From Palleronia salina (GTDB lineage Bacteria; Pseudomonadota; Alphaproteobacteria; Rhodobacterales; Rhodobacteraceae): a stretch of 64,000 nucleotides of DNA. The notes beneath the pieces were generated by a model, which saw only the letters and a list, made by a program, of their open reading frames with translations, had not been told where the DNA came from and made no database searches. Positions 41,597 through 56,652 of the stretch are shown piece after piece. A program made the translations under genes and the position numbers. Location: NCBI RefSeq assembly GCF_900141995.1, contig NZ_FQZA01000013.1:1-64000 (forward strand), given 5' to 3'. How positions within the stretch are numbered: the stretch's first letter is position 1; each line of letters opens with the position of its first letter.

Positions 41597-42472
41597 TCAG
41601 GCGGCGGATTGACCGTAGTATAGGCCAACCACGTGTTCGGCCTCGGCAAAGAACAGCCAGCGTTGCGCCAGCATCCCGACGACATGGCTGATCACCGCGA
41701 CCGCGGCGAGCCAATGGCTGAACGGCAGCAGAAGCAACAGGGCGGGCAGGGCGAAGGCGAGGACCAGGACCAGCGTCCGCAACGTCACCCGGTGCTTGCG
41801 CCCGACACGGAACACCATTTCGCGCGTCAGGTAGTTGCCCCCGGTATGGGGCGGCTCGAACAGGCGGACCCGGCCACGGCCGCCCAGCCCGGTCGCGGTG
41901 CCAATGGTCGTGCCCGACTTGGCCAGCGCCGCGTCGCCCCGCCTCCACGCCAGCATCTGCAGCGCGGCCATGACGATCAGCAGGACCACGGTCCAGCTGA
42001 CGCGGCCCGACAGCAACGCCCCGGCCGTGATGGCATAGCCCAGGAACAGCAGCGGGGTCGTCGGCTGGTGCCAGCGCGGCACGGTCTTCAGCTGCGCGTA
42101 GATCATCGCGGTCGATCCGACGGTGCCCAGGCACAGCACCGCGCCCAGCCAGCCCAGGGGTGCGAGCCTGAGGCCGGGCATCGCCAGCAGCGCGTAAAGC
42201 CCCATGACCGCCAGGGCGGCCACGGCGACCCACGCCTCGCGGCTCAGCCACGATGTGCGCCACTGGGTGAACGCCTTCAGCGCGCGTTCCGGGTGGCCCA
42301 GGTGCAGGGTCGACGACAGCAGGCCCGCGCCGGTCAGCGCGAAGGCCAGGGCGAAGAAGATCAGCCCGGTCAGCCCTTCCGTCGGCGCAAGTCCGAGGCC
42401 CAAGAAGGCCAGCAAGCCCAGGCCAAGCCCTGACAGGGTCGAGAAGAAGATCAGCGACGGCGCGGGATGCAT
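41597..42472 (-). CDS. soeC: Sulfite dehydrogenase membrane subunit (SoeC/DmsC family)
   Basis: This 291-residue NrfD/DmsC-like integral membrane protein has about eight helices. The DmsC motifs are SSTLHLGHPERALKAFTQWRTSWLSREAW (~44-72) and a C-terminal quinol-site region. It anchors SoeAB to the cytoplasmic face of the inner membrane and passes electrons to quinone. Its start lies one base after the soeB stop. DmsC alone would suit several enzymes; the neighbouring xsc makes sulfite oxidation the best assignment. Confidence 0.82.
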   Translation of the reverse strand: MHPAPSLIFFSTLSGLGLGLLAFLGLGLAPTEGLTGLIFFALAFALTGAGLLSSTLHLGHPERALKAFTQWRTSWLSREAWVAVAALAVMGLYALLAMPGLRLAPLGWLGAVLCLGTVGSTAMIYAQLKTVPRWHQPTTPLLFLGYAITAGALLSGRVSWTVVLLIVMAALQMLAWRRGDAALAKSGTTIGTATGLGGRGRVRLFEPPHTGGNYLTREMVFRVGRKHRVTLRTLVLVLAFALPALLLLLPFSHWLAAVAVISHVVGMLAQRWLFFAEAEHVVGLYYGQSAA

Positions 42473-42473
42473 G

Positions 42474-43211
42474 TCAGAGCCGCTCCAAGGCGCGGTCGAG
42501 CCAGCCGAGGAAACCTTTCGGCCCCTCGTCCACACGCTCGAGGAAGGGGGCCAGCACGTCGATCTCGTCCCGCGGGCGGGGGGTCAGGTACTTGTTCACC
42601 GGCTTCGTCTCCTGCTCGGGCATCAGGTCCATGCCGCCGCGCGCCGCGACCAGCTGGCTCACGTCGCTGTCGGGATCGGCGAGGTCGCCGAAATGGCGCG
42701 CCCCGGCGGGACAGGTGCGCACGCAGGCGGGCACGCGATCCTCTTCCGGAAGCGCCTCGTTGTAGATCCGGTCGACGCAGAGCGTGCATTTCTTCATCAC
42801 GCCTTCGATCGGGTCCATCTCGCGCGCGCCGTAGGGGCAGGCCCAGGCGCAGAGGCCGCAACCGATGCAGTCGGTCTCGTTCACCAGGACGATGCCGTCC
42901 TCGACCCGTTTGTAGGACGCACCCGTAGGACAGACGGTAACGCAGGGCGCGTCGTCGCAATGCAGGCAGGACTTGGGGAAATGCACGGTCTGGGCCGCGC
43001 CCTCGTCCGGCTGCACTTCGAAGCTGTGGATGCGGTTCAGGAACGCGCCCGACGGCGCCGCGCCGTAAGCGTCGTCATCGCCCAAGGGGGCGCCGTAGTT
43101 CTGGGTGTTCCAGCCCTTGCAGGCCGTGACGCAGGCATGGCAGCCGACACAGGTGTCGAGGTCGATCACCAGGCCCAGCTTGCGCTCGGTCGTCTCGGGC
43201 AGCGCGGTCAT
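42474..43211 (-). CDS. soeB: Sulfite dehydrogenase iron-sulfur subunit (SoeB)
   Basis: This 245-residue ferredoxin-like subunit has four [4Fe-4S] motifs: CVGCHACVTAC (~21-31), CLHCDDAPCVTVCPTG, CIGCGLCAWACPYG and CTLCVDR with CVRTCPAGAR. It carries electrons from the molybdenum subunit to the SoeC membrane anchor. It starts in an ATGA overlap with soeA. It lacks a signal peptide, consistent with a cytoplasmic complex. Confidence 0.88.
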   Translation of the reverse strand: MTALPETTERKLGLVIDLDTCVGCHACVTACKGWNTQNYGAPLGDDDAYGAAPSGAFLNRIHSFEVQPDEGAAQTVHFPKSCLHCDDAPCVTVCPTGASYKRVEDGIVLVNETDCIGCGLCAWACPYGAREMDPIEGVMKKCTLCVDRIYNEALPEEDRVPACVRTCPAGARHFGDLADPDSDVSQLVAARGGMDLMPEQETKPVNKYLTPRPRDEIDVLAPFLERVDEGPKGFLGWLDRALERL

Positions 43212-46045
43212 GGCTTCACCTGCTGCGCCACGCGGTGCGGGCCGCGGCCCACCGGGCTGCCCTGACGGCCCGTGTCGGGATAGGACTGCTTCGGCGCCGG
43301 CACCTTCTCGACCTTCACCCGCAGGTCGAACCAGGCCGCCTGGCCCGTCACCGGATCGCTGTTCGACCAGCGCAGACCGTCGCCCTTCGGCGGCAGCAAC
43401 TCGTGAATCAGGTGGTTCAGCAGGAAGCCATTCTTCGCCTCGGGCGCGTCGTCGTCCAGCGCCCATGCCCCGCGCCGCTTGCCGATGGCGTTCCAGGTCC
43501 AGATCGTGTTGCGGTTCAGAGCCGCCTGGTGCGCCACGGGAACGGTGATCTCGCCATGCTGCGAGGTGACGCGCGCCCAGTCGCCTGCTTGGAAACCGTG
43601 TTTCTCCCACAATTCCGTGGGCAGATACATGGGATTATGCCCGTGGATTTGCCGCAGCCAGGCGTTCTGGCTGCCCCAGCTGTGATACATGGCGGCCGGG
43701 CGCTGGGTCAGGGCATGGATCGGGTATTCGACCGGGTCGGCGTGGCCGTCCTCCAGCGGCGGATACCAGATCGGCAACGGATCGAGCGTGGTCTTGATGC
43801 GTGCCCGCAGGTGATCGGGGGGCTGGCGATGGCCATGCCCCTCGGCCGCCAGTTGGAACCGGCGCAACGGCTCGGACCAGAGCGAGAAGAGGTAGGGCGT
43901 CGCCTTGTCGAACAGCCCGATATCGACCGCCCATTCCTGGTAGGCCATGTTCCACGGTTTGAAATACTGCGCGTTTTCGGGGACGTGCTCCATCCAGAAG
44001 CCGCCATTGGCGATATAGGCGTCGATCTGCCCCGCGTTGGGCGTGCCGCGCCCGTGGGTCAGACCCTTTTCGCCCACGCGCCACCCGGCCAGCGGCCCCA
44101 CCCCGGGCCGCCGTTCGTGGTTCACCATGTAATCGGCGTAGTCCTGGAATTTCGCGCTACCGTCGTCGTTCACGAACCCCGGCAGGCCCAGCCGGGCGCC
44201 CAGGTCCACGAGGACCGACTGGAAACCGCGCACGTCGCGGTCGGGCGCGACCACGGGCCAGCGGATCGCGTCGGCGACGGCGTCGGCCTCGCAGATCGGC
44301 CGGTCCAGCAGCGAGATGCAGTCGTGCCGTTCCAGGTAGGTGGTGTCCGGCAGCACCAGGTCGGCATAGGCCACCATCTCGGACGAATAGGCGTCCGAGT
44401 AGATGATGTTGGGGATGACGTAGTCGCCGTTCTCGTCGGTGTCGGTCAGCAACTCCATGACGCGCCCGGTGCTCATGGACGAGTTCCACGCCATGTTCGC
44501 CATGTATAGAAACAGCGTGTCGATCGGGTAGGGGTCGCCCGCATGCGCGTTCGAGATGACCATGTGCATCATGCCATGCGCGCTCATGGGATTTTCCCAG
44601 GTAAACGCCTTGTCGATGCGCGCCGGGCTGCCGTCCTCCTTCAGGCACAGGTCGTCGGGCCCCTGCACGAAGCCCAGGTGCGGTCCGTCCAGCGGCTGAC
44701 CCGGTGTCACTCCGCAGTGCGGTTTCGGGTGCGCGGTCGCGGGCTTGGGGTAGGGCGGTTTGAACCGGAAGCCGCCGGGCGCCTCGACGCTGCCCAGCAG
44801 GATCTGGAGAAGATGCAGCGCGCGGGCGGTCTGGAACCCGTTGGAATGGGCGCTGATGCCGCGCATGGCGTGAAAGCTCACGGGCCGCGCGCGCATGCTC
44901 CGGTGGGTCTCGCCGCGGAAGTCCGTCCACGCGCGATCCAGTTCGAACGACTTGTCGAAGGCGGCATGGGCCAGTTCGGCGGCGATGGCCTCGATCCGCT
45001 CGGGCGCGATGCCGCAGGAGGGGCCCACCACCTCGGGCGCGTAGGCATGGTCGAGATAGCGCTCGGCGATGTGCTGGAACACGCTGCGGTGGGTCAGCCC
45101 CGCGCGGCGCAGCTTGCCGGCAAGGTCCGGGTGCACCCCCTTCGCGTCGAACGACGCTGGTTTGCCGGTGGCGCGATCCATGACCAGCGCCCGCCCGTTG
45201 TCGTCCGTCAGCAAGAGCCCGTGCTCGGGCGATTTCGGATCCTCGTTCACCAGCACCGGCGCGTTGGTGAACCGCGCGAGGTAGTCGAGGTCGATCTTGC
45301 CCGCACGCAGCAGGCAGTGGATCAGCGACAGGATGAACAGCCCGTCGGTGCCCGGCGTGATGCCCACCCACTCGTCGGCCACGGCATTGTAGCCCGTGCG
45401 CACCGGGTTCACGCCGATGACCTTCACGCCGCGGGCCTTCAGCCGGCCAAGGCCCATCTTGATCGGGTTGCTGTCGTGATCCTCGGCCACGCCGAAGATC
45501 ATGAACAGCTCGGTCCGCTCCCAGTCGGGCTGGCCGAATTCCCAGAACGCCCCGCCCATGGTGTAGATGCCGGCGGCCGCCATGTTGACGCTGCAAAAGC
45601 CACCATGTGCGGCGTAGTTGGGCGTGCCGTAGGCCTGCGCCCAGAAGCTGGTGAAGCTCTGCGACTGGTCGCGCCCGGTGAAGAAGGCCAGCTTCTCCGG
45701 TGCCGTCTTGCGTAGTGGCCCGAGCCGGTCGGTCACCATCTGCAGCGCCTCGTCCCAGCCGATTTCCTCGAACTGGCCCGAACCGCGCGGGCCCGTGCGC
45801 TTCAGCGGCGCGCGGAGCCGGGCGGGCGACAGGTGCTGCATGATCCCCGCGCTGCCCTTGGCGCACAGCACGCCGCGGTTCACCGGGTGGTCGCGGTTGC
45901 CCTCGATATAGGCGACCCGCTCGGTGCCCTCGGCGTCCTTTTTCAGGTGGACGTCGATGCCGCAGCGGCAGGCGCACATGTAGCAGGTGGTCTTGGCGAC
46001 CCGGTCGCCGGGCTTCGGGTGCAGGTCGATCTTGGGCGTTGTCAT
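43208..46045 (-). CDS. soeA: Sulfite dehydrogenase molybdopterin subunit (SoeA)
   Basis: This 945-residue molybdopterin oxidoreductase of the DMSO reductase superfamily has an N-terminal [4Fe-4S] site from Cys21, Cys24, Cys28 and Cys61. It has bis-MGD-binding segments such as FFTGRDQSQSF, IFGVAEDHDSNPIK and a C-terminal dinucleotide-binding domain. No Tat signal is present, which separates it from periplasmic DmsA/PsrA/TtrA and agrees with the cytoplasmic SoeABC that oxidises sulfite to sulfate. It sits 9 bp downstream of ackA in the taurine gene strand, where sulfite from Xsc must be removed. Confidence 0.85.
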   Translation of the reverse strand: MTTPKIDLHPKPGDRVAKTTCYMCACRCGIDVHLKKDAEGTERVAYIEGNRDHPVNRGVLCAKGSAGIMQHLSPARLRAPLKRTGPRGSGQFEEIGWDEALQMVTDRLGPLRKTAPEKLAFFTGRDQSQSFTSFWAQAYGTPNYAAHGGFCSVNMAAAGIYTMGGAFWEFGQPDWERTELFMIFGVAEDHDSNPIKMGLGRLKARGVKVIGVNPVRTGYNAVADEWVGITPGTDGLFILSLIHCLLRAGKIDLDYLARFTNAPVLVNEDPKSPEHGLLLTDDNGRALVMDRATGKPASFDAKGVHPDLAGKLRRAGLTHRSVFQHIAERYLDHAYAPEVVGPSCGIAPERIEAIAAELAHAAFDKSFELDRAWTDFRGETHRSMRARPVSFHAMRGISAHSNGFQTARALHLLQILLGSVEAPGGFRFKPPYPKPATAHPKPHCGVTPGQPLDGPHLGFVQGPDDLCLKEDGSPARIDKAFTWENPMSAHGMMHMVISNAHAGDPYPIDTLFLYMANMAWNSSMSTGRVMELLTDTDENGDYVIPNIIYSDAYSSEMVAYADLVLPDTTYLERHDCISLLDRPICEADAVADAIRWPVVAPDRDVRGFQSVLVDLGARLGLPGFVNDDGSAKFQDYADYMVNHERRPGVGPLAGWRVGEKGLTHGRGTPNAGQIDAYIANGGFWMEHVPENAQYFKPWNMAYQEWAVDIGLFDKATPYLFSLWSEPLRRFQLAAEGHGHRQPPDHLRARIKTTLDPLPIWYPPLEDGHADPVEYPIHALTQRPAAMYHSWGSQNAWLRQIHGHNPMYLPTELWEKHGFQAGDWARVTSQHGEITVPVAHQAALNRNTIWTWNAIGKRRGAWALDDDAPEAKNGFLLNHLIHELLPPKGDGLRWSNSDPVTGQAAWFDLRVKVEKVPAPKQSYPDTGRQGSPVGRGPHRVAQQVKP

Positions 46046-46054
46046 GGCGTCACC

Positions 46055-47107
46055 CTAGTGTGCCGCCCCGCCGGGCGTCATCCCCAAAATCCCGGCCGCC
46101 TCGCGCGCGATCGTGCCTTCCTCGTCGGCGGGCACCACGTGGACGGGCACGTCTCCGGCAAAGGCCAGCCCGGCGACGATACCCTCGCGGATGGCGGCAT
46201 CGTTCTCGCCGATGCCGCCGGTGAAGGCGATGGCGTCGATGCCGCCCATGGTGGCGACGAGCCCCCCGGCCTGCCGCACGGCCCAGTGCACGAAGTGTCG
46301 CCGGGCAAGACCGCCTGCGGGCAGGGACCGCATGTCGCTGGTGCCCCCCAGCGCGCGCAGGCCGCTGTCGTTGTTCAGCAGGCGGCGCGCGGCGTCGAGA
46401 CCGATCTCGCCGGCGATCCGCAGGACGGCGTTGGCGTCGATCTCGCCCACGCGGCTGCCCATGGTCAGGCCCGAAACCGGCGAATAGCCCATGGAGGTCG
46501 CCACCGACCGCCCGTCGCGAATGGCGCAGATCGACGCGCCGTTGCCCAGGTGACAGGCCAGCAAGCGGCGCGGCAGCGGATCGAGCGCGCCCACCAGCCC
46601 GGCATAGCTCAGGCCGTGGAAGCCATAGCGCCGCACGCCCGCCGCGTGCCACCGGTCGGGCAGGGCATAGCGCAGGGCGACGTCCTCCTGTCCGGCGTGG
46701 AAGGCGGTGTCGAAACTGGCGACCTGCGGCACACCGGGGGCCATTTCCGCCAGCGCGTCGATGCAGGCCAGGGCGACCGGGTTGTGCAACGGCGCCAGTG
46801 TCCCCAGCGCGTCGATCCGGGCGCGCACCGTGGCGTCTATGCGCCGGGGGCCGTCCATCTCCGCCCCGCCATGCACGACCCGGTGCGCGGTGCCCGCCAG
46901 TGTGTCGGGCGCCAGGTCCAGAGCCTCCAGCACGGCGACCAGAGCGGTTCCGTGATCGGCCAACGCGGCCGCGCGCCGCCCGCCATTCACGATAACGGCC
47001 GAGCGCCCCCCGATCTCGACGACCTGCGCGTCGGCCACGCGGGCAAGGTCGCGCGCGAACACCGCGCATTTCAACGAGGAGGATCCAGCATTCACCACCA
47101 GAATCAT
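46055..47107 (-). CDS. ackA: Acetate kinase
   Basis: This 350-residue ASKHA-fold kinase converts acetyl phosphate and ADP to acetate and ATP. Motifs are MILVVNAGSSSLK (phosphate loop), HRVVHGG, FDTAFH, RRYGFHGLSY, LACHLGNGAS and FTGGIGENDAAIRE. It is about 50 residues shorter than E. coli AckA but all the signature segments are there. It lies between xsc and soeA, so it probably uses the acetyl phosphate made by Xsc. Many taurine loci have pta there instead; no pta is in this window. Confidence 0.92.
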   Translation of the reverse strand: MILVVNAGSSSLKCAVFARDLARVADAQVVEIGGRSAVIVNGGRRAAALADHGTALVAVLEALDLAPDTLAGTAHRVVHGGAEMDGPRRIDATVRARIDALGTLAPLHNPVALACIDALAEMAPGVPQVASFDTAFHAGQEDVALRYALPDRWHAAGVRRYGFHGLSYAGLVGALDPLPRRLLACHLGNGASICAIRDGRSVATSMGYSPVSGLTMGSRVGEIDANAVLRIAGEIGLDAARRLLNNDSGLRALGGTSDMRSLPAGGLARRHFVHWAVRQAGGLVATMGGIDAIAFTGGIGENDAAIREGIVAGLAFAGDVPVHVVPADEEGTIAREAAGILGMTPGGAAH

Positions 47108-47181: not shown

Positions 47182-48945
47182 CTATTCCGCAGCCATGTCC
47201 GACGCGCTGACGCCCGCCACGCGCACCGGCTTCTTCATGGCATCGCGGCGGAACGGCTCGCCCAGTTCCTGGTTCAGGATCACCTCGATCAGCGTGGTCT
47301 CGTTGTCTTCCATCTGCGCGCGCACGGCCTCGGCCAGCATCTCGGTCAGCTCGTCCATGCCGCGCGCCTGCACGCCCTTCAGGCCGCAGGCCTGGGCGAT
47401 GCCGGCATAGCTCACCTTCAGGTCCAGCTCGGTGCCCACGAAATTGTCGTCGAACCACAGGGTCGAGTTCCGCTTCTCCGCGCCCCACTGGTAGTTGCGG
47501 AAGACGACCATGGTGATGGCGGGCCACTCGTCCCGGCCGATGGCGGTCAGCTCGGTCACCGCGATGCCGAAGGCGCCGTCGCCCGCGAACCCCACCACCG
47601 GCACGGAGGGTTGCCCGATCTTGGCGCCCACGATGGACGGCAGGCCGTATCCGCAGGGTCCGAACAGGCCGGGCGCCAGGTATTTCCGGCCCGCCTCGAA
47701 GGACGGGTAGGCGTTGCCGATGGCGCAGTTGTTGCCGATGTCGCTGCTGATGATGGCGTCCTTGGGCAGCGCCGACTGGATCGCGCGCCATGCCATGCGC
47801 GGGCTCATCCGGTCGGGATGGGCCGCGCGGGCGCGCTCGTTCCAGCTGGTGCCGGGGTCGTCCTCCTCGTGGTCCATGGACGACAGCTCCTGCGCCCAGC
47901 GGGACTTCGTCTCGGCGATCAGGTTCAGCCGCTCCTTGGCGGGCGCGTCCTTGTCGCCCAGCCGCTCCAGGAGCCCCTGCGCGACCTTCTTCGCGTCGCC
48001 CACGATCCCGACGGTGACGGGCTTGGTCAGACCGATCCGGTCGGGGTTGATGTCAACCTGGATCACCTTGGCGTCCTTGGGCCAGTAATCGATCCCGTAT
48101 CCCGGCAGGGTCGAGAACGGGTTCAACCGCGTGCCGAGGCACAGAACCACGTCGGCCCGCGCGATCAGCTCCATCCCCGCCTTGGACCCGTTGTAGCCCA
48201 GCGGCCCCGCGTGCAGCGGGTGCGAGCCGGGAAAGGCATCGTTGTGCTGGTAGCCGCAGCAGACCGGCGCATCCAGACGCTCGGCCAGGTCGACCGTATC
48301 GCCGATCGCCCCGGCCAGAACCACGCCGGCGCCGTTCAGGATCACCGGGAAATCGGCGCTTTTCAACAGCGCGGCGGCCCGATCCAGGGATGCGGCCCCC
48401 GGCGTCGGCGCCTCGAACTCCACCGGATCCGGCAGGGCGATATCGACCACCTGGGTCCACATGTCCCGCGGCACGTTGATCTGCGCGGGTGCGCTCATGC
48501 GGTGCGCCTTGGCGATGACCCGGGCCAGCACCTCGGCGATGCGCGAGGGGTCACGCACCTCTTCCTGGTAGGCGACCATGTCCTCGAACAGCTTCATCTG
48601 CTCGACTTCCTGGAAGCCGCCCTGTCCGATGGTCTTGTTGGCCGCCTGCGGCGTGACCAGCAGAAGCGGGGTGTGGTTCCAGTAGGCGGTCTTCACGGCG
48701 GTCACGAAATTGGTGATGCCGGGGCCGTTCTGGGCGATCATCATGGACATCTCGCCGGTGGCGCGGGTGTAGCCATCGGCCATCATGCCCGCGCTGCCTT
48801 CATGGGCGCAGTCCCAGAAGGTGATGCCGGCGGTGGGGAAAAGGTCCGAAATCGGCATCATGGCCGATCCGATGATCCCGAAGGCATGGCGGATTCCGTG
48901 GCGCTGCAACACCTTCACGAAGGCTTCTTCGGTGGTCATCTTCAT
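47182..48945 (-). CDS. xsc: Sulfoacetaldehyde acetyltransferase
   Basis: This 587-residue thiamine-diphosphate enzyme cleaves sulfoacetaldehyde with phosphate to sulfite and acetyl phosphate. The N-terminal TPP Glu is in DCAHEGSAGMMADGYTRATG, and the C-terminal TPP/Mg motif begins GFAGDGAFGIAVTEL and includes FRNYQWGAEK. The segment RHGIRHAFGIIGSAMMPISD is typical of Xsc and not of acetolactate synthase. The start at 48945 has GGAGGGAG upstream; a second in-frame ATG is two codons on. A putative TauR operator pair lies 55-87 bp upstream. Neighbours tauR, tpa, ackA and soeABC confirm the pathway. Confidence 0.95.
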   Translation of the reverse strand: MKMTTEEAFVKVLQRHGIRHAFGIIGSAMMPISDLFPTAGITFWDCAHEGSAGMMADGYTRATGEMSMMIAQNGPGITNFVTAVKTAYWNHTPLLLVTPQAANKTIGQGGFQEVEQMKLFEDMVAYQEEVRDPSRIAEVLARVIAKAHRMSAPAQINVPRDMWTQVVDIALPDPVEFEAPTPGAASLDRAAALLKSADFPVILNGAGVVLAGAIGDTVDLAERLDAPVCCGYQHNDAFPGSHPLHAGPLGYNGSKAGMELIARADVVLCLGTRLNPFSTLPGYGIDYWPKDAKVIQVDINPDRIGLTKPVTVGIVGDAKKVAQGLLERLGDKDAPAKERLNLIAETKSRWAQELSSMDHEEDDPGTSWNERARAAHPDRMSPRMAWRAIQSALPKDAIISSDIGNNCAIGNAYPSFEAGRKYLAPGLFGPCGYGLPSIVGAKIGQPSVPVVGFAGDGAFGIAVTELTAIGRDEWPAITMVVFRNYQWGAEKRNSTLWFDDNFVGTELDLKVSYAGIAQACGLKGVQARGMDELTEMLAEAVRAQMEDNETTLIEVILNQELGEPFRRDAMKKPVRVAGVSASDMAAE

Positions 48946-48999
48946 GGCGTGTCTCCCTCCGCTGGTCCCGGCCTTCTTGGGCGCGGCGGCGCCGCTTCT

Positions 49000-49032
49000 G
49001 TAGGGCCAGTTGGTTCGGCAGGATAGGGCCAG
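49000..49032 (-). promoter_or_regulatory. Putative TauR operator pair upstream of xsc
   Basis: On the xsc strand the 10-mers CTGGCCCTAT (49032-49023) and CTGGCCCTAC (49009-49000) form a direct repeat with a 23-bp period, ending 55 bp upstream of the xsc start. The same 10-mer type and the same 23-bp period recur upstream of tpa and of tauR. MocR-type regulators bind direct repeats, so TauR activation of xsc is the natural reading. Confidence 0.7.
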
Positions 49033-49059
49033 ACGGCGATTCGATTTGCCGCCGGCGAT

Positions 49060-49116
49060 GGGGGCTCTGCCCCCGTCGCTGCGCGACTCCCCCGGAGGTA
49101 CTTGTGGAAAGATGAA
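49060..49116 (+). repeat. Dispersed palindromic repeat, copy 3 (inverted)
   Basis: This copy is in the opposite orientation to the other three: GGGGGC-TCT-GCCCCC, then GTCGC-TGC-GCGAC, then CCCCCGGAGGTACTT and GGAAAGATGAAG. It lies 12 bp downstream of the tauR stop (49129) and next to the xsc operator pair. It could separate tauR and xsc transcription. Confidence 0.75.
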
Positions 49117-49128
49117 GCGCGTGGAGGA

Positions 49129-50592
49129 TCAGGGTCCATGCCGCCGCGCGTCGATGGCGGCGGCGATGCGCGCGACGCCTTCGGCGATGCGGTCCTCGGG
49201 GATCGAGGAATAGGCCAATCGGTAGGTCTCGCGCCCCTGCGCGGGTTCCGCGAAGAAGGGCGCGCCCGGTTCGATCAGCACCGACCTGTCGCGCAGGTCG
49301 GCCGCCAGCGCCGCGGCGTCGAGGCCCGGCGCGCGCATCCAAAGCGACGACCCGCCGAAGCTGCCCCGCCCGGCGACATCCAGCCCGTGATGCGCCACGG
49401 CGGCATCCATCACCTCGCGCCGGCGACGGTAGGCGCGCCCCATCCGCTTGATGAGCGCGTCGTAATGCCCGAGCTCGAGGAAATAGGCCGCGGTCCGCTG
49501 GATCTGCCCGGGCGGGTGGCGCAGCGTGGTCGACCTGAGCGCGCGCGCGGCGTCGATGAAGGGCTTGCTGCCCACGAGATAGCCCAGCCGCAGCCCCGGA
49601 AAAAGCGACTTGGAAAAGCTGCCCACGTGGATCACGCGCCCGTCCCGGTCGAGCGACTTGAGCGCGGGGGCCGGGGGGCCGAGGAACGACATCTCGAACT
49701 CGTAATCGTCCTCGACCACCAGCATGTCGTGGCGCGCGGCGTGATCGAGCAGGGCCCGCCGACGTGCCAGCGGCAGGGTGGCCGAGGTCGGGCAGTGGTG
49801 GCTGGGCGTGACGAAGGCCACGTCGGCCAACGGCAGGTCCTCGACCGGCAGGCCCTGCGCGTCCACCGGTACGGGGCGGACCCGCGCGCCGGACTGGTGC
49901 AGGATCTCGCGCAGGGGCGGGTAGGCCGGGTCTTCGATCAGCGCGTGGCGGTCCGGCCCCAGCAGCACCTGCGCGGTCAACCACAGGGCATTTTGCGCGC
50001 CCATGGTCACCAGGATCTCGTCCTCACCGGCCAGGATACCGCGCCGGGGCAGTGAATGGCGCGCGATGAAATCCACCAGCCTCGGGTCGTCCCGTTCGTA
50101 GTGATCCGCCGTCATCGCTTCGAAATCGCGCTGCCCCAGCGTCCGCAGCGCGCAGAGCCGCCAGTTGGCGTGATCGAACAGGGTCGGGTCGGTCTGGCCG
50201 TAGATGAAGGGAAAGCGGTAGCGGCGCCAGTCGGCCGGACGCTCCACCCGCGGGGCGGGCACCGGGATTGGCTGAAGGGCGTGCTGCCAGTCCACGCGGT
50301 CCTCGCGCGGGGCCGGGACGTGGCCCGAGGGCTGCGGCGCCGTGTCGGAGACGAAATACCCCGACCGCCCGCGCGCGATCAGGTAGTCGTCGGCCACCAG
50401 GTCGGTATAGGCCAGCGTCACCGTCATGCGGCTGACGCCCAGGTGACGGGCCAGCGCGCGAGAGGACGGCATCCGCTCGCCCGGGCGGAAGCGCCCCGAC
50501 AGGATCCCCTGCGCGACCATTGCCTGGATCCGCGCCTGAAGCGTTCCCGCGGCATCGGGGTCGAGGAAGAAGGTTTCGGTGGCAAGGCCCAT
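49129..50592 (-). CDS. tauR: MocR-type (GntR/aminotransferase) regulator TauR
   Basis: This 487-residue protein has an N-terminal GntR winged helix (~15-82, SGRFRPGERMPSSRALARHLGVSR) fused to a fold-type I aminotransferase domain (~130-480). The PLP lysine is Lys328 in SFSKSLFPGLRLGY, and DPAYPPL and VVEDDYEFE are also seen. In Rhodobacter, TauR of this family activates taurine genes, probably sensing taurine through the PLP pocket. The position between xsc and tpa supports the name. A pair of CTGGAC-type repeats covers its own ribosome-binding region in reversed orientation, suggesting self-repression. Confidence 0.88.
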   Translation of the reverse strand: MGLATETFFLDPDAAGTLQARIQAMVAQGILSGRFRPGERMPSSRALARHLGVSRMTVTLAYTDLVADDYLIARGRSGYFVSDTAPQPSGHVPAPREDRVDWQHALQPIPVPAPRVERPADWRRYRFPFIYGQTDPTLFDHANWRLCALRTLGQRDFEAMTADHYERDDPRLVDFIARHSLPRRGILAGEDEILVTMGAQNALWLTAQVLLGPDRHALIEDPAYPPLREILHQSGARVRPVPVDAQGLPVEDLPLADVAFVTPSHHCPTSATLPLARRRALLDHAARHDMLVVEDDYEFEMSFLGPPAPALKSLDRDGRVIHVGSFSKSLFPGLRLGYLVGSKPFIDAARALRSTTLRHPPGQIQRTAAYFLELGHYDALIKRMGRAYRRRREVMDAAVAHHGLDVAGRGSFGGSSLWMRAPGLDAAALAADLRDRSVLIEPGAPFFAEPAQGRETYRLAYSSIPEDRIAEGVARIAAAIDARRHGP

Positions 50593-50595
50593 GAT

Positions 50596-50628
50596 CTGGA
50601 CATATCGCGCGCCGTCCACTGGACCAAT
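50596..50628 (+). promoter_or_regulatory. Putative TauR operator pair upstream of tauR
   Basis: CTGGACATAT (50596-50605) and CTGGACCAAT (50619-50628) form a direct repeat with a 23-bp period on the plus strand, opposite to tauR. The first unit starts 4 bp upstream of the tauR ATG, so protein bound here would block initiation. A GTCCA-C-TGGAC palindrome (50614-50624) overlaps the second unit. Confidence 0.6.
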
Positions 50629-50650
50629 AGCCGAGGCGCCCCGATCAGAT

Positions 50651-51583
50651 TTAGCCGGACGTCTCCCAAGGCGCCGGATCGCCCGAAAGGGCACGTCCGA
50701 AGACGTTCTCACGATGCCAGCGCAAGTTGTCTCTGTGCGGCGCATCGCGCGGATCTGCCGGTCTGACCAGCTTGCCGTCCGGCGCAAGAAGCCGCCCGAC
50801 CACGTCCCGCGGCACCTTGTTGTGCGATACGAGGATCGTCTCGCAATCCTCCGCGACCGAGATCAGCCCGCGATCGAACATCCAGTGCAGCGTCCCCGAC
50901 AACGCCAGCCCGTTGCGGACCGAGTCGCTGCCCCTGTCCGCGACGGGCTTGATATGCGCCGCCTGCACCTCGGGCCGCCCACCACCGTTGCGCAGCATCA
51001 GGCCCGACATGGCGCAGCGATATCCATAGGCCTCACGCACCTTCCGGCGGAACGCGACATCGCGGTAGGGCCGGCGGGTGAGCCGCTCAAGCACCGGGCG
51101 TTCGAAGCTCTTGCTTTCATCATCAACCTCGTCCCTCTGAGGGTCATAGCGCGTCGCCTCCATTCGCTCCAGATCCTGCGGCAAGCCCAGGTCGACGATG
51201 CGGGCGAAGTCCGCCTCGGGCAGACGCCGGACGGCAAGCTGGATCGCACCACCCTTCTTCGGAGTCCCGTCCGGTCCGGTCAGCGCGCTTTCCAGCGGGC
51301 GGCCAGAAATCAACCGCGGCACCTCGCGGTCGAATGGCAGGAAGCTGCCCGGTTCGATCATGGCCAGAAAGCGGCCCTCCGCGCCCGGCTTCGGGATCAC
51401 CCGATCGATCTTCGCCACCGCGAAGTAGCCGCGCGGCCCGGCCTTCACCGGCTCGTAGTAGACGATCCAGTCGCAGACGGCCTCATCGACCGCTTTCAGG
51501 TAGGAGCGCGGGAAGTCGTAAACGATGTCCGGCTCGTCCTCGTAGATCGAATCCGCCTTGTGCAGGAGAACCAGCTTTCCCAT
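50651..51583 (-). CDS. HNH endonuclease
   Basis: This 310-residue protein has a ~190-residue N-terminal domain of unknown type (DSIYEDEPDIVYDFPRSYLK, PRGYFAVAKIDRVIPKPGAEG). An HNH nuclease domain of the restriction-like HNH_2 kind covers ~200-265: YGYRCAMSGL, AAHIKPVADRGSD and NGLALSGTLHWMFDRGLISV. It probably cuts DNA and may be a solitary defence or McrA-like nuclease, but no methylase or partner gene is near. It interrupts the taurine genes between tpa and tauR, next to a dispersed repeat. I place the start at ATG 51583 (MGKLVLLHK) rather than 54 bp further upstream. Confidence 0.83.
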   Translation of the reverse strand: MGKLVLLHKADSIYEDEPDIVYDFPRSYLKAVDEAVCDWIVYYEPVKAGPRGYFAVAKIDRVIPKPGAEGRFLAMIEPGSFLPFDREVPRLISGRPLESALTGPDGTPKKGGAIQLAVRRLPEADFARIVDLGLPQDLERMEATRYDPQRDEVDDESKSFERPVLERLTRRPYRDVAFRRKVREAYGYRCAMSGLMLRNGGGRPEVQAAHIKPVADRGSDSVRNGLALSGTLHWMFDRGLISVAEDCETILVSHNKVPRDVVGRLLAPDGKLVRPADPRDAPHRDNLRWHRENVFGRALSGDPAPWETSG

Positions 51584-51638
51584 GCGCCCCAGGAAAGCCG
51601 TCTCGGCCCGGGATGCAACGGTGTCCTGCCGTCCCACC

Positions 51639-51698
51639 CTTCATCTTTCCCCAAATACCTCGGGGGAGTCCGCGACAGCGGACGGGGGCAGAGCCCCC
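51639..51698 (-). repeat. Dispersed palindromic repeat, copy 4
   Basis: This copy shows CTTCATCTTTCC, core AAATACCTCGGGGG, GTCCGC-GACA-GCGGAC and the hairpin GGGGGC-AGA-GCCCCC. It lies 10 bp downstream of the tpa stop (51708) and 56 bp upstream of the HNH endonuclease start. Copies 3 and 4 keep the same three-part layout and are the fullest. Confidence 0.78.
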
Positions 51699-51707
51699 TC
51701 CCGGCGA

Positions 51708-53111
51708 TCAGCCGAAGACGCGGGTCAGGGCACCGTCGACGGCGTCGGTGATGTGGTCGATCTCGTCCGCCGTGGCGATCAGCGCGGGGCTGAAGCACAG
51801 GGTGTTGTTGTAGCCCGGGACCGAGCGGTTGGTCGCGCCGATGATGACACCCTGGGCCATGCAGTCCTTGACCACCGCCTGCACGTGCGCCTCGGGCATG
51901 ACCTCCTTGGTCTCGCGGTCGGTGACCAGCTCGGCGCCCAGGAACAGGCCCTTGCCGCGCACGTCGCCGATGACGGCGTGCTTCTCGGCCAGGCGGTGCA
52001 GGTTGCCGATCATCCGCTCGGACATCCGGTCGACATTCGACAGGAGATCCTCGTCCTCGATGATCGCCATGTTCTCCAGCGCCGCGGCCGGTCCGGCGGT
52101 GCAGCCGCCGAAGGTGCTGATATCGCGGAAATAATTCAACGGGTCGGCCTCGTCGTCGCTGAACATCTCGAACACGCGCTCGGAGGTGACGCAGCAGGAA
52201 ATCGCGGCATAGCCCGAGGCGACGCCCTTCGCCATCGTCACCAGGTCCGGCTCGACCCCGTATTGCTGGTAGCCGAACCAGGTGCCGGTGCGGCCCAGGC
52301 CGCAGACGACCTCGTCGATATGCAGCAGCACGTCGTACTTGCGGCAGATCTCCTGCACGCGGTCCCAGTAAGCTTCGGGCGGGGGGATCACGCCGCCGCC
52401 GGCCGTCACCGGCTCGAGGCAGAGCGCGCCCACGGTGTCGGGACCCTCGCGCAGGATCACCTTCTCGATCTCGTTGGCGACGGCGATGCCATAATCGGCG
52501 CCCGAGAGGTGTCCCAGACCCTGCTCGTGCTTGCGGTACTCGAGGCAGTGGGGCACCTCGACGAAGCCGGGGGCGAAGGGGCCGTACTGGGCGTTACGCT
52601 CCTGCTGGCCGCCGGCCGAGAGGCAGCCGATGGTGGTGCCGTGATAATCGCGGTCGCGGAACAGGATCTTGTGCTTCTTGCCGCCGTACCGCTTGTGGGC
52701 GATCTGCCGGACGATCTTGAACGCCTTCTCGTTCGCCTCGGAGCCCGAGTTGGCATAATAGACGCGGCTGAGACCCGGCATCTTCTCGATCAGCCGCTCG
52801 GCGAAGCGGGCGCCGGGAATGGATCCCAGCGACCCGCCGAAGAAGTTCATCTTCACCAGCTGGTCGCGCACCGCGTCGGCGATGCGTTCACGGCCATAGC
52901 CCACGTTCACGGTCCATACACCGCCCGAAACGGCGTCGATATGTTCTTTGCCGGTGATGTCCCACAGCTTCAGACCCTTGCCCTCGACGATGATGCGCGG
53001 GTCGATCTCGGACCGCAGGTAAGCCGCGTGCTGGCTCAGGTGATGCCAGACGTGGTTGCGGTCGGCCTCGATCACCGCGCGCGGGTCGTTCATCTGCAGC
53101 GGAAGGGTCAT
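51708..53111 (-). CDS. tpa: Taurine:pyruvate aminotransferase
   Basis: This 467-residue class III (fold type I) aminotransferase has the PLP lysine Lys295 in LVTMAKGVASGY and Asp266 in LLHIDEVVCGLGRTG. Substrate-side motifs include SGSEANEKAFK (~122-132) and RDRDYHGTT. It transfers the amino group of taurine to pyruvate, giving sulfoacetaldehyde and alanine. ATG 53111 has GGAG eight bases upstream. It is divergent from tauABC across a 268-bp region with predicted TauR sites. The assignment over other omega-aminotransferases rests on this context plus overall family resemblance. Confidence 0.92.
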   Translation of the reverse strand: MTLPLQMNDPRAVIEADRNHVWHHLSQHAAYLRSEIDPRIIVEGKGLKLWDITGKEHIDAVSGGVWTVNVGYGRERIADAVRDQLVKMNFFGGSLGSIPGARFAERLIEKMPGLSRVYYANSGSEANEKAFKIVRQIAHKRYGGKKHKILFRDRDYHGTTIGCLSAGGQQERNAQYGPFAPGFVEVPHCLEYRKHEQGLGHLSGADYGIAVANEIEKVILREGPDTVGALCLEPVTAGGGVIPPPEAYWDRVQEICRKYDVLLHIDEVVCGLGRTGTWFGYQQYGVEPDLVTMAKGVASGYAAISCCVTSERVFEMFSDDEADPLNYFRDISTFGGCTAGPAAALENMAIIEDEDLLSNVDRMSERMIGNLHRLAEKHAVIGDVRGKGLFLGAELVTDRETKEVMPEAHVQAVVKDCMAQGVIIGATNRSVPGYNNTLCFSPALIATADEIDHITDAVDGALTRVFG

Positions 53112-53143
53112 GGGTCGGCTCCGAACAAGGATCGATCGTTTCA

Positions 53144-53208
53144 TTCTGACCAGAACGCCTGTCGCGGCAAGAGTGATAGGGCCAGATCACGCCACCCCAT
53201 CTGTCCAG
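53144..53208 (-). promoter_or_regulatory. Putative TauR operators between tpa and tauA
   Basis: On the tpa strand CTGGACAGAT (53208-53199) and CTGGCCCTAT (53185-53176) form a direct repeat with a 23-bp period, 65-97 bp upstream of tpa. A third, weaker unit CTGGTCAGAA (53153-53144) lies closer to tpa. The remaining DNA up to tauA (53209-53379) contains no gene and no further clear copy; one site cluster may drive both directions. Confidence 0.7.
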
Positions 53209-53379
53209 CGGCGCGGTGGGCGGACCGGGGCCGAGTTTATCATTGACGCTGCGAAACCGGCCCGCTTTGCTGGTTGGGTCCATGACACAGTTCGGCCCGG
53301 AGGCTGAAAAGGACCGGGAGTCCTCGGCGCGGCCGGGCGCAAACAATTATAAAACAACGATATCAACCGGGAGAAAGCG

Positions 53380-54387
53380 ATGAAACTGAAGGCAATTCTG
53401 ATGGGCGCCGCAGCGGGCGCCGTCTCCATGACGACATTCGCGGCCCACGCGGCCGAGCATTCCGAAGGCATCACCGTGGCCTACTTCCTCGAGTGGCCGA
53501 TGCCTTTCCAGTACGCGAAGGAAATGGGCACCTACGAGGAAGAAATGGGCGTGCCGATCAACTGGGTCAGCTTCGACACCGGAACGGCGATGTCCGCCGC
53601 CATGGCGTCGGGCGACGTGCAGATCTCGGTCAGCCAGGGTGTGCCCCCCTTCGTCGTCGCGGCGAGCGCGGGCCAGGACATCCAGATCATCGACGTGGCC
53701 GTCAGCTATTCCGACAACGACAACTGCGTGGTCGCCACGGCACTGGAAATCGACAAGGACACCGCCGGTGACCTGGAGGGCAAGAAGGTGGCCGTGCCGC
53801 TGGGCACCGCCGCGCATTACGGCTTCCTCAAGCAGATGGACCATTTCGGCGTCGATCCCGCCTCGATGGAGATCGTCGACATGGCCCCCGCCGAGGGCGC
53901 GGCCGCGCTCGCGCAGGGCAGCCTCGACATGGCCTGCGGCTGGGGCGGTGCGCTGCGCCGCATGAAGGAGTCGGGCAATGTGCTGCTGACCGGCGCCGAG
54001 AAGGAAGAGCTGGGCATCCTCGTTTTCGACGTGACCAGCGCGCCCGCCGATTTCGTGGCCGAGAACCCGGACATGGTGGCGTCCTTCCTCAAGGTGACGG
54101 CCGATGCCAACGCCATGTGGAACGCCGGCGAGAACCGCGAGGAGATGCTGGAAGTCATCGCCCGCGACTCGGGCATGGACGTGACCGCCACGGACGAGAC
54201 GATTTCCACCTTCGTCTTCCCGCCGGTCGACGAGCAGCTGAGCCAGAAATGGCTGGGCGGCGGCGCGCAGGAGTTCATGAACGGCGTGGCCGAAGTGTTC
54301 CTGGAAGCCGGCGCCATCGACGAGAAGCGCGACAGCTATGCCAACGCCGTGGCCACCGGGCCGCTGGAAGCCGCGCAAGGCATGTGA
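53380..54387 (+). CDS. tauA: Taurine ABC transporter substrate-binding protein
   Basis: This 335-residue periplasmic protein has a signal peptide (cleavage ~AHA-AEH, residue 24). It is an NMT1/SsuA-type binding protein with VAYFLEWPMPFQYAKEMGTYEEE, the MSAAMASGDVQIS helix and KKVAVPLGTAAHYGFL. Start ATG 53380 has GGGAGAAAG upstream. It is first in tauABC and divergent from tpa, so taurine is the expected ligand. A 10-bp hairpin follows its stop. Confidence 0.92.
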   Translation: MKLKAILMGAAAGAVSMTTFAAHAAEHSEGITVAYFLEWPMPFQYAKEMGTYEEEMGVPINWVSFDTGTAMSAAMASGDVQISVSQGVPPFVVAASAGQDIQIIDVAVSYSDNDNCVVATALEIDKDTAGDLEGKKVAVPLGTAAHYGFLKQMDHFGVDPASMEIVDMAPAEGAAALAQGSLDMACGWGGALRRMKESGNVLLTGAEKEELGILVFDVTSAPADFVAENPDMVASFLKVTADANAMWNAGENREEMLEVIARDSGMDVTATDETISTFVFPPVDEQLSQKWLGGGAQEFMNGVAEVFLEAGAIDEKRDSYANAVATGPLEAAQGM

Positions 54388-54394
54388 GCCTGCG

Positions 54395-54429
54395 GCGGGC
54401 CGGGGGCGAGATCGTGCCCGGCCCGCTTT
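54395..54429 (+). other. Intercistronic hairpin after tauA
   Basis: GCGGGCCGGG (54395-54404) pairs perfectly with CCCGGCCCGC (54417-54426) around a 12-nt loop, followed by TTT. It begins 7 bp after the tauA stop and lies well before tauB (54515), so it can act as partial terminator and 3' protector of the tauA message. Confidence 0.7.
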
Positions 54430-54514
54430 GCCGAGTATTCAGCGACGGGTCACGTTCAGCCGCGCGCACCCGTCCGGGCCATTTCCCGGCCCGACACTCA
54501 AGCCCGGAGCCGCC

Positions 54515-55315
54515 ATGTCCGACCTTGTGATCGACGATGTCTCGATGCGCTTCGATCTGCCCGACGGTGGATCGGTGCAGGCCCTCAAGAACGTGTCCCT
54601 GACCCTGAAGCAGGGTGAGATCATGTCCGTTCTCGGCCCGTCGGGCTGCGGCAAGACCACGCTTTTGAACATCCTCGCGGGCTTTCTTGCCCCCACCGAG
54701 GGCAAGGTCGTCCTGGGCGACAAGCGCGTGAAGGGCCCGGGGGCGGAACGCGGCATGGTCTTCCAGCAGGGCGCGCTGTTCGAGTGGATGAGCGTGCGCG
54801 AGAACGTGGGCTTCGGTCCGGCGATGAAGGGCATGCCCAAGGGTGAGAAACGCGAGATCGTCGATCACCTGCTTGGCGTCGTCGGCCTGGCGCAGTTCAA
54901 GGAAAAGGCCGTCTACGAGCTGTCGGGCGGGATGCAGCAGCGCGTGGCCCTGGCCCGTTGCCTGGCGAACGAGCCCGAGGTCATCCTCATGGACGAACCG
55001 CTGGGCGCGCTCGACGCGCTGACCCGCGAGAAGATGCAGGGCCTCGTCCTGAAGCTGTGGAAGGAGACCGGCAAGACCGTGATCCTCATCACCCACTCGG
55101 TCGAGGAGGCGCTGCTTCTGGGCGAACGGCTGCTGGTCATGGCGCCGCGCCCGGGGCGGATCCACCGTGAATACCGTCTGCCCTTCGCCGATGCGGGCGT
55201 CGGCCAGGACCTGCGCGAGGTGAAGAAGATGCCCGAGTTCGGCCAGCGCCGGGAAGAGATCCTGTCGATGATCTGGGAAATGGAAGAAGAGATCATGGGA
55301 GGGGCCGCGCAATGA
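54515..55315 (+). CDS. tauB: Taurine ABC transporter ATP-binding protein
   Basis: This 266-residue ATPase of the SsuB/TauB class has Walker A GPSGCGKTT (41-49), GMVFQQGALFEWMSVREN (Q-loop), signature SGGMQQR, Walker B VILMDEPLGALDALTRE and LITHSVEEALLLGERL. The start at 54515 follows GGAG. Its stop overlaps the tauC start as ATGA. Confidence 0.93.
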   Translation: MSDLVIDDVSMRFDLPDGGSVQALKNVSLTLKQGEIMSVLGPSGCGKTTLLNILAGFLAPTEGKVVLGDKRVKGPGAERGMVFQQGALFEWMSVRENVGFGPAMKGMPKGEKREIVDHLLGVVGLAQFKEKAVYELSGGMQQRVALARCLANEPEVILMDEPLGALDALTREKMQGLVLKLWKETGKTVILITHSVEEALLLGERLLVMAPRPGRIHREYRLPFADAGVGQDLREVKKMPEFGQRREEILSMIWEMEEEIMGGAAQ

Positions 55316-56652
55316 CCGCCCTCATCATCGCCGATCTCTGGGGCGAACTGGTGGCGGTCCTGTCCACCCTGTTCTTCGCGCTGCCCTATATCGCGGGCTA
55401 TATCGGGATCATCCTGCTGACGCTTCTGATCTGGACCGGGATCAAGAAGGTGCTGCGCCCGGCCTCGGACTACACGTCGCTCAAGACCGTGACCTTCGGG
55501 GACGAGTCGACCGTCGTGTCGAACTCGGTCGCGTCGGTCGTGTCGGTCGTGCTGATCTTCGTGCTCTGGGCGTCCTTCACCGGCTCGTCCCTGCTGCCGG
55601 GGTTCCTGCACGCGCCGGGCCCCTTCGTGGGCACCGGCACCTTCACCTATACGGTCACCACGCCGGACGGCCGCAGCGACGACGCCGAGGTGACGGTGCT
55701 CGTCTATCCCCGCGACGACGAGGCGCCGGCCCCCGAGGTGCCGCCCGGCGACGGGTTCGCCAAGAACGACTCGATCGCCATCGCCGAGTATCGCAGCGAC
55801 CTTTTGCGCGTGGACCAGAACGACGAGATCGGGCGCGACGAAGAGGCCGTCGTCACCCATATCGACGGCAAGGAAATCGCGCCGGGCGAGACGGTGCGCG
55901 TGGATTTCGGGACCGTGGCGCTGTCGGGGCGGGGCACACCCAATATCCGTCCTTCGGCTGGTCTGCAGATGGAGCCGATCTGGCTGCCATCGCCCGAAGC
56001 GGTCTGGTCCCGCCTGACCGAGATCGCGACGACCGGCTATCGCAACTCGACCCTGGTCGAGCATCTGGGCTACTCGCTCTTCCGGGTGATCGTGGGCTTC
56101 ACGCTGGGGGCCATGGTCGGCATCCCGCTGGGCTATGCCATGGGCCTGTCGGACTGGTTCCGTGGCTGGTTCGACCCGATCGTCGAGTTCATGCGCCCGG
56201 TTCCGCCGCTGGCCCTGATCCCGCTGGTCATCATCTGGGCGGGCATCGGCGAGGTGGGCAAGATCATCCTGCTGTTCCTGGCCGCATTGTGGATCATGGC
56301 CATCGGCGCGCGATCCGGCGTGTCGGGCGTGAAGATCAGCAAGGTCCACGCGGCCTATTCGCTGGGGGCGAGCAAGTGGCAGGTTCTGCGCCACGTCATC
56401 ATCCCCAACTCGCTGCCCGAAATCTTCACCGCGGCCCGCGTCGCCATGGGCGTGTGCTGGGGCACCGTGGTCGCGGCCGAGCTGGTCGCAGCCGAAAAGG
56501 GCGCGGGCATGATGATCATGGTGGCCTCCAAGTTCCAGTCCACCGACATCGTCATCATGGGGATCATCCTGATCGGCATCATCGGCTTCGGTATCGACAT
56601 GCTGATGCGCGCGGCCGAGCGATTCCTCGTCCCATGGAAGGGCCGCGGCTGA
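55312..56652 (+). CDS. tauC: Taurine ABC transporter permease with extra periplasmic domain
   Basis: This 446-residue permease is far longer than E. coli TauC (about 275). It has an additional N-terminal helix (~12-42), a second helix (~72-90), then an inserted ~125-residue segment (~98-222). After that the usual TauC sequence resumes at LPSPEAVWSRL and continues through the permease domain, with the EAA loop AAYSLGASKWQVLRHVIIPN (~346-365). The insert includes GTFTYTVTTPDGRSDDAEV, like cadherin/VCBS-type beta-sandwich repeats, and should face the periplasm where TauA docks. ATGA overlap with tauB fixes the start. Confidence 0.9.
   Translation: MTALIIADLWGELVAVLSTLFFALPYIAGYIGIILLTLLIWTGIKKVLRPASDYTSLKTVTFGDESTVVSNSVASVVSVVLIFVLWASFTGSSLLPGFLHAPGPFVGTGTFTYTVTTPDGRSDDAEVTVLVYPRDDEAPAPEVPPGDGFAKNDSIAIAEYRSDLLRVDQNDEIGRDEEAVVTHIDGKEIAPGETVRVDFGTVALSGRGTPNIRPSAGLQMEPIWLPSPEAVWSRLTEIATTGYRNSTLVEHLGYSLFRVIVGFTLGAMVGIPLGYAMGLSDWFRGWFDPIVEFMRPVPPLALIPLVIIWAGIGEVGKIILLFLAALWIMAIGARSGVSGVKISKVHAAYSLGASKWQVLRHVIIPNSLPEIFTAARVAMGVCWGTVVAAELVAAEKGAGMMIMVASKFQSTDIVIMGIILIGIIGFGIDMLMRAAERFLVPWKGRG

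Follow-up and report, generated by a model that had tools for sequence, protein, structure and literature searches.

Three paired direct repeats in the taurine gene cluster of Palleronia salina very probably serve as operators of the MocR-type regulator TauR, through which xsc and tpa would be activated and tauR itself would be repressed. The pairs lie within a 64,000-nucleotide stretch of contig NZ_FQZA01000013.1 (hereafter the window), upstream of xsc, tauR and tpa, which are predicted to encode sulfoacetaldehyde acetyltransferase, the regulator and a taurine:pyruvate-type aminotransferase, respectively. The original prediction had interpreted them as a TauR regulon, and this model is supported by comparison with the published TauR consensus, by the genome-wide specificity of the pairs, by their co-occurrence with TauR across genomes and by their conservation in the 80 nearest loci.

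The xsc pair consists of CTGGCCCTAT-N13-CTGGCCCTAC on the minus strand, the tauR pair of CTGGACATAT-N13-CTGGACCAAT on the plus strand and the tpa pair of CTGGACAGAT-N13-CTGGCCCTAT on the minus strand, each forming a 33-bp direct repeat with a period of 23 bp (Table 1). All three were recovered at the coordinates and on the strands originally predicted. They also run, as had been claimed, along xsc and tpa and against tauR at its start codon, with site edges 54, 64 and 3 bp from the respective starts. Translation of tpa could alternatively begin at an in-frame ATG at 53144, which is closer to the operator than the ATG at 53111. The tpa pair lies between divergent genes and is oriented away from tauA, a point absent from the original prediction. 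When the pair pattern CTGGMCNNAY-N13-CTGGMCNNAY was searched, the window gave three matches versus none across 100 dinucleotide-preserving shuffles, while the single 10-mers were only mildly enriched (16 versus 9.4 expected). Furthermore, across all 30 contigs of the genome (3,574,415 bases) the pattern matched only these same three sites, with no match for the reversed control; the full pattern is hence not equally common away from the tau genes, as the original prediction required. A loosened pattern, with up to two mismatches and the last letter of each unit free, lost this specificity (120 matches versus 193 for the control) and was rejected. The relaxed pattern had a single exact match away from the tau genes, on contig 13 (L004), which was judged to be due to chance; it lies 37 bp upstream of a cobN-like gene, is oriented away from it and has a matrix score of about 18, its last base having been supplied by hand.

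According to the available text of Suvorova and Rodionov (2016, PMC5320631), TauR of Rhodobacter capsulatus binds direct repeats of CTGGACYTAA, all TauR regulons there share a similar motif, and the box distances of MocR regulators amount to one or several helical turns with slight variation. The pairs in the window are likewise two direct repeats of the CTGGACYTAA type at a whole-helical-turn spacing, and the CTGGAC that the original prediction gave for Rhodobacter TauR sites agrees with the published consensus. The boxes read CTGG(A/C)CNNA(T/C); at positions 7 and 8, some of those in the tpa and tauR sites differ from this consensus. The regulator itself combines a GntR domain (PF00392, 5.9e-16) with an Aminotran_1_2 domain (PF00155, 8.7e-22), the domain fusion of MocR proteins, and its gene lies with xsc, tpa and tauABC, which the same source lists among alphaproteobacterial TauR regulons together with ackA and, in some Rhodobacterales, oxidoreductase subunits. 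It is 97% identical to TauR of Palleronia pelagia. Its best NCBIfam match was PdxR, a related MocR protein (340 bits, above the cut-off of 320), with no TauR model among the 25 of 65 families listed. The names xsc, tpa and tauR hold, with matches to TIGR03457, to class-III aminotransferases and to GntR plus Aminotran_1_2, respectively.

We also examined 296 genomes of the family, 191 of which encode a TauR-like protein (E <= 1e-60, a cut-off that may take in some MocR paralogues). The strict pair, defined as CTGGMCNTA twice at a distance of 22 or 23, was found in 107 genomes at 160 sites, versus 12 for the reversed control. Of the 191 genomes with a TauR-like protein, 106 contained it, compared with one of the 105 without; the Fisher value for this association was not used. 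Since two of the three sites in the window itself fail the strict pattern, it is too strict for counting misses.

The orientation and spacing of the pairs were compared in 81 tau loci, namely the window and the best 80 of 564 loci encoding a TauR relative, those nearest to this TauR. A matrix built from the strict pairs of loci excluding the window and the P. pelagia locus (L034) was run over both strands at periods of 14 to 39, and pairs of at least 15 bits numbered 69 at period 22 and 126 at period 23, with zero to six at every other period. Calling the best site per locus at 14 bits or more, we found a tauR site in 68 of the 81 loci, opposite to tauR every time and 1-18 bp from its start, with period 22 in 56 and period 23 in 12. 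The xsc site was present in all 61 loci with xsc, always along the gene (period 23 in 59), and the tpa site in 48 of the 52 loci whose tpa exceeds 50% identity, again along the gene in all 48 (period 23 in 45). The best co-directed pair near tauR reached at most 1.7 bits in 80 loci and 10.8 bits in L082. Four loci (L044, L057, L065 and L072), kept out of the tpa count, have a distant, about 30% identical aminotransferase gene divergent from tauR, with a period-23 operator 29-58 bp before that gene. Pairs of 22 or 23 bp are conserved at xsc, tpa and tauR. The identical 23-bp period of the original prediction stands for the three sites of the window and not in general, being confined to the Palleronia lineage and a small number of others. 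A third box at xsc, suggested by pairs that overlap in several loci, was rejected, with no further half-site enriched at a fixed offset (at most one locus per offset).

A second sample was drawn from the strict sites of the family genomes, 129 of the 160 being paired with a TauR position; its species and those of the 81 loci overlap. Among the matches listed, all 23 sites at a tauR start were opposite to tauR, 22 of them at period 22, and all 47 sites just downstream of tauR, on the xsc side, were co-directed, 44 at period 23. The remaining sites lay on other contigs or more than 12 kb away (27) or elsewhere nearby (32).

Homologues outside this set were taken from 289 genomes of the class, in which the loci of 30 homologues, with short flanks, comprised the window, four others of the family and 25 of other families. 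All four family loci have a 22-bp pair opposite to tauR, and five of the six other-family homologues with an adjoining xsc have a co-directed 23-bp pair before xsc. In addition, 11 of the 158 plasmid records that encode a TauR-like protein were examined, and nine of these 11 carry a period-22 pair opposite to tauR: Sinorhizobium meliloti, S. medicae, Ensifer, two Aminobacter, Cereibacter sphaeroides, Gemmobacter, Tritonibacter and Pseudorhodobacter. Both Aminobacter pairs score 13.0 bits, and those of the other seven range from 18 to 29 bits. A divergent tauA-like or tripartite ATP-independent periplasmic (TRAP) transporter gene faces it in S. meliloti (by open reading frame) and in the two Aminobacter, C. 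sphaeroides and Gemmobacter (by annotation). S. meliloti shows a possible third box, spaced 22 and then 23, but this is not claimed, as S. medicae does not have it.

The placement of the pairs relative to promoter-like elements was then read from the relatives. At xsc, 42 of 59 loci have TAnnnT at precisely 53 bases from the start of the site, compared with at most three at any other offset, so that the -35 region coincides with the end of box 2; at tpa the signal is weaker, with xAnnnT at 54 in 19 of 45 loci (mean 2.9 per offset). The period-22 tauR sites follow two designs, in both of which the operator appears to cover the core promoter or the gene start. In 35 loci with the ATG 10-18 bp away, TTG stands at position 11 in 24 and TAnnnT at 34 in 21, with six more at 33; the two elements are 23 bases apart, as expected of a -35 and a -10. 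Since the ATG there most often begins at 46, six bases past the -10, the tauR RNA is suggested to be leaderless. In the 21 loci with the ATG 1-6 bp away, TTG is found at -16 in 19, and an AAGG/AGGG-like stretch occupies the place expected for a ribosome-binding site within the proximal box, also in 19. The 12 period-23 tauR loci have no such shared layout. In the window, the reverse complement of the tauR operator contains TTGGTC-N17-TATGTC, which stands six bases before the ATG on the tauR strand and is possibly a weak -35/-10 pair; a simple promoter scan of the window gave no match at this operator.

The orientation, distance and promoter placement in relatives support the model of activation and self-repression put forward in the original prediction. 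A TauR dimer, its two winged-helix domains arranged head-to-tail, would read two boxes resembling CTGG(A/C)CYTA(T/A) and separated by about two helical turns. At xsc and tpa, where the pair runs along the gene with its second box on the -35 region, TauR would activate transcription from beside RNA polymerase. At tauR, where the reversed pair lies over the predicted core promoter and the start of the gene, TauR would block access to the promoter once bound and so lower its own level. The reversed site may have been inherited from a divergon like those of Sinorhizobium and Cereibacter, in which tauR and a divergent target had one operator between them. This origin is the simplest reading because reversed 22-bp pairs face divergent genes in S. 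meliloti, Aminobacter, C. sphaeroides and Gemmobacter. Once the upstream neighbour of tauR was a co-directional gene, either tpa or the HNH endonuclease gene, self-repression would have been the only role left to the operator.

Several observations weigh against this model. No tauR pair of at least 14 bits was found in 13 of the 81 loci (L043, L046, L048, L051, L053, L058, L061, L067, L073, L085, L093, L096 and L104); opposite pairs score 7.9 to 13.8 bits in seven of these loci, and in the other six none exceeds 1 bit. Only three of the 25 other-family homologues (L123, L124 and L126) have an opposite pair of at least 13 bits at tauR, although many of the 25 may be other MocR proteins, and two Paracoccus plasmids among the 11 have no tauR pair. 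The window xsc (CAAGAA there) and tpa do not have TAnnnT at the expected distance, which is why the promoter layout is borrowed from relatives. A 22- or 23-bp pair pointing at tauA was absent from all 31 tpa-tauA regions, including 53209-53379 of the window, and a site of tauA's own was thus rejected; half-sites numbered two in L104 alone, 24 apart, and one each in L070 and L099. In addition, within 95 bases upstream of tauR, L046 and L048 have an inverted pair, CTGGxCTTATGCTATAxGTCCAG, where a direct pair would be expected, which is a different operator design.

We considered whether TauR only activates, the tauR site being a relic of, or still serving, a divergent target gene. This is unlikely, though it has points in its favour: the same-orientation 22-bp pair stands between tauR and a divergent tauA-like or TRAP gene in the S. 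meliloti, Aminobacter, Cereibacter and Gemmobacter plasmids, and the pair precedes the divergent aminotransferase gene in the four loci described above. However, the tauR site is kept where a co-directional gene lies close upstream, as in L086 and L082 (tpa ends 61 bp away) and in the window (HNH gene 59 bp away), and TTG and TAnnnT occupy fixed places within the pair on the tauR strand. It is very unlikely that the pairs belong to another regulator of taurine genes. A TGG or TGT group is common among the motifs of MocR relatives (PMC5320631) and TauR binding here is a prediction from sequence, but the R. capsulatus TauR consensus matches, the pair tracks the presence of TauR across the 296 genomes, and most of the 81 loci have it at tauR itself. 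As for repeats arising by chance or composition, the mild enrichment of single 10-mers and the unspecific loosened pattern would be in line with them; against the shuffles without a single pair and the placement conserved across the 81 loci and the second sample, their probability is negligible.

We also considered a geometric code, in which a 23-bp pair along the gene on the -35 region would mark an activator site and a reversed, usually 22-bp pair in the partly leaderless tauR core promoter a self-repressor site, and the difference of one base would let taurine-free and taurine-bound TauR prefer different operators, so that both could be set independently. Such a code is quite improbable, and it is put forward as speculation. 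The combination of tauR 22 with xsc 23 exceeds the reverse combination by 42 to 1, but its p-value was not used because the loci are related and the TauR tree, made by a quick method, needs only five changes of the tauR period (at least five, four of them forced by well-supported branches). A tree comparison of the period with divergent neighbours gave four to five independent pairs, too few to decide. The simpler rule that 22 bp means repression only is weakened and disfavoured, since rhizobia, Cereibacter and Gemmobacter have 22-bp pairs that also face a divergent tauA-like or TRAP gene, and S. meliloti PtauA is activated by TauR.

The system is of a known kind, with the reversed tauR operator as one less familiar detail. 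The repeats bound by TauR, its role as an activator and the autorepression of MocR regulators have all been published: TauR activates S. meliloti PtauA in response to taurine (Mostafavi et al. 2014, PMC4254191, available text), and MocR regulators are often found in divergons and often repress themselves (PMC5320631). As in R. capsulatus and other published regulons, a MocR regulator would control tauABC, tpa and xsc through CTGGACYTAA direct repeats (available parts of PMC5320631 and PMC4494728), whereas the window has a reversed operator of tauR's own, a separate xsc operator and an HNH gene between tpa and tauR. S. meliloti shares the activation of taurine genes by TauR, and its strain SM11 has a reversed pair 16 bp upstream of tauR; there, however, a divergent tauA-like gene faces the pair and the period is 22. 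GabR of Bacillus subtilis is a MocR dimer that binds direct repeats, activates gabTD and autorepresses gabR (PMC6917764, PMC9452892, PMC4494728, each in part), and TauR of the window would resemble it in both roles. Unlike GabR, which uses one 41-bp region overlapping both divergent promoters, with the box ATACCA, the window has three separate operators, none of them between tauR and a divergent gene. For Rhodobacteraceae and near relatives, the pairs offer a conserved operator grammar of the taurine-use regulator that is precise enough to propose TauR regulons from sequence, and reduce the model of activated catabolism and self-repression to three short testable fragments; the occurrence of both 22- and 23-bp spacings in the same genome is a natural experiment on the choice of a MocR dimer between activation and repression. 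The primary paper on R. capsulatus TauR is reportedly that of Wiethaus et al. 2008. Neither a reversed tauR operator embedded in the promoter nor the difference between 22 and 23 bp was described in the titles and abstracts surveyed or in the available parts of PMC5320631, PMC4494728, PMC4254191, PMC11423573, PMC6917764 and PMC9452892; RegPrecise and the primary TauR paper lie outside this scope and may record them.

Table 1. Putative TauR operators and genes of the taurine cluster in the window.
Feature	Position	Strand	Remarks
Putative TauR operator of xsc	49000..49032	-	along xsc, period 23, 54 bp from ATG
Putative TauR operator of tauR	50596..50628	+	against tauR, period 23, 3 bp from ATG
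Putative TauR operator between tpa and tauABC	53176..53208	-	along tpa, period 23; 64 bp from ATG 53111, 171 bp from divergent tauA start
tauR, MocR-type regulator, 487 amino acids	49129..50592	-	GntR winged helix-turn-helix plus class I/II aminotransferase domain
xsc, sulfoacetaldehyde acetyltransferase	47182..48945	-	TIGR03457, 896 bits, cut-off 676
tpa, class-III aminotransferase (taurine:pyruvate type by context)	51708..53111	-	profile matches
tauA-like taurine ATP-binding cassette (ABC) substrate-binding protein	53380..54387	+	TIGR01729, 171 bits, below the cut-off of 304
tauB- and tauC-like reading frames (ATPase, permease)	54338..56652	+	best matches are taurine ABC subunits, below cut-offs
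HNH endonuclease gene between tpa and tauR	50651..51583	-	PF13391; PADLOC HNH model, 1.1e-14
Acetate kinase-family gene behind xsc	46055..47107	-	match below cut-off
Molybdopterin oxidoreductase, 4Fe-4S subunit and DmsC/NrfD-type anchor, behind the acetate kinase gene	41597..46045	-

The taurine-use cluster on the minus strand runs from tpa through the HNH gene, tauR, xsc and the acetate kinase-like gene to the molybdopterin, 4Fe-4S and DmsC-type trio, with the tauABC-like genes divergent from tpa. The HNH gene is co-directional with tpa and tauR, and therefore no divergent gene faces the tauR operator of the window. Since among the 81 loci only the window and the P. pelagia locus have an HNH gene at this place, it appears to have been inserted into the tau cluster in this lineage specifically. 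The trio behind the acetate kinase-like gene could remove the sulfite that Xsc produces, acting as a sulfite dehydrogenase, presumably the one named SoeABC.

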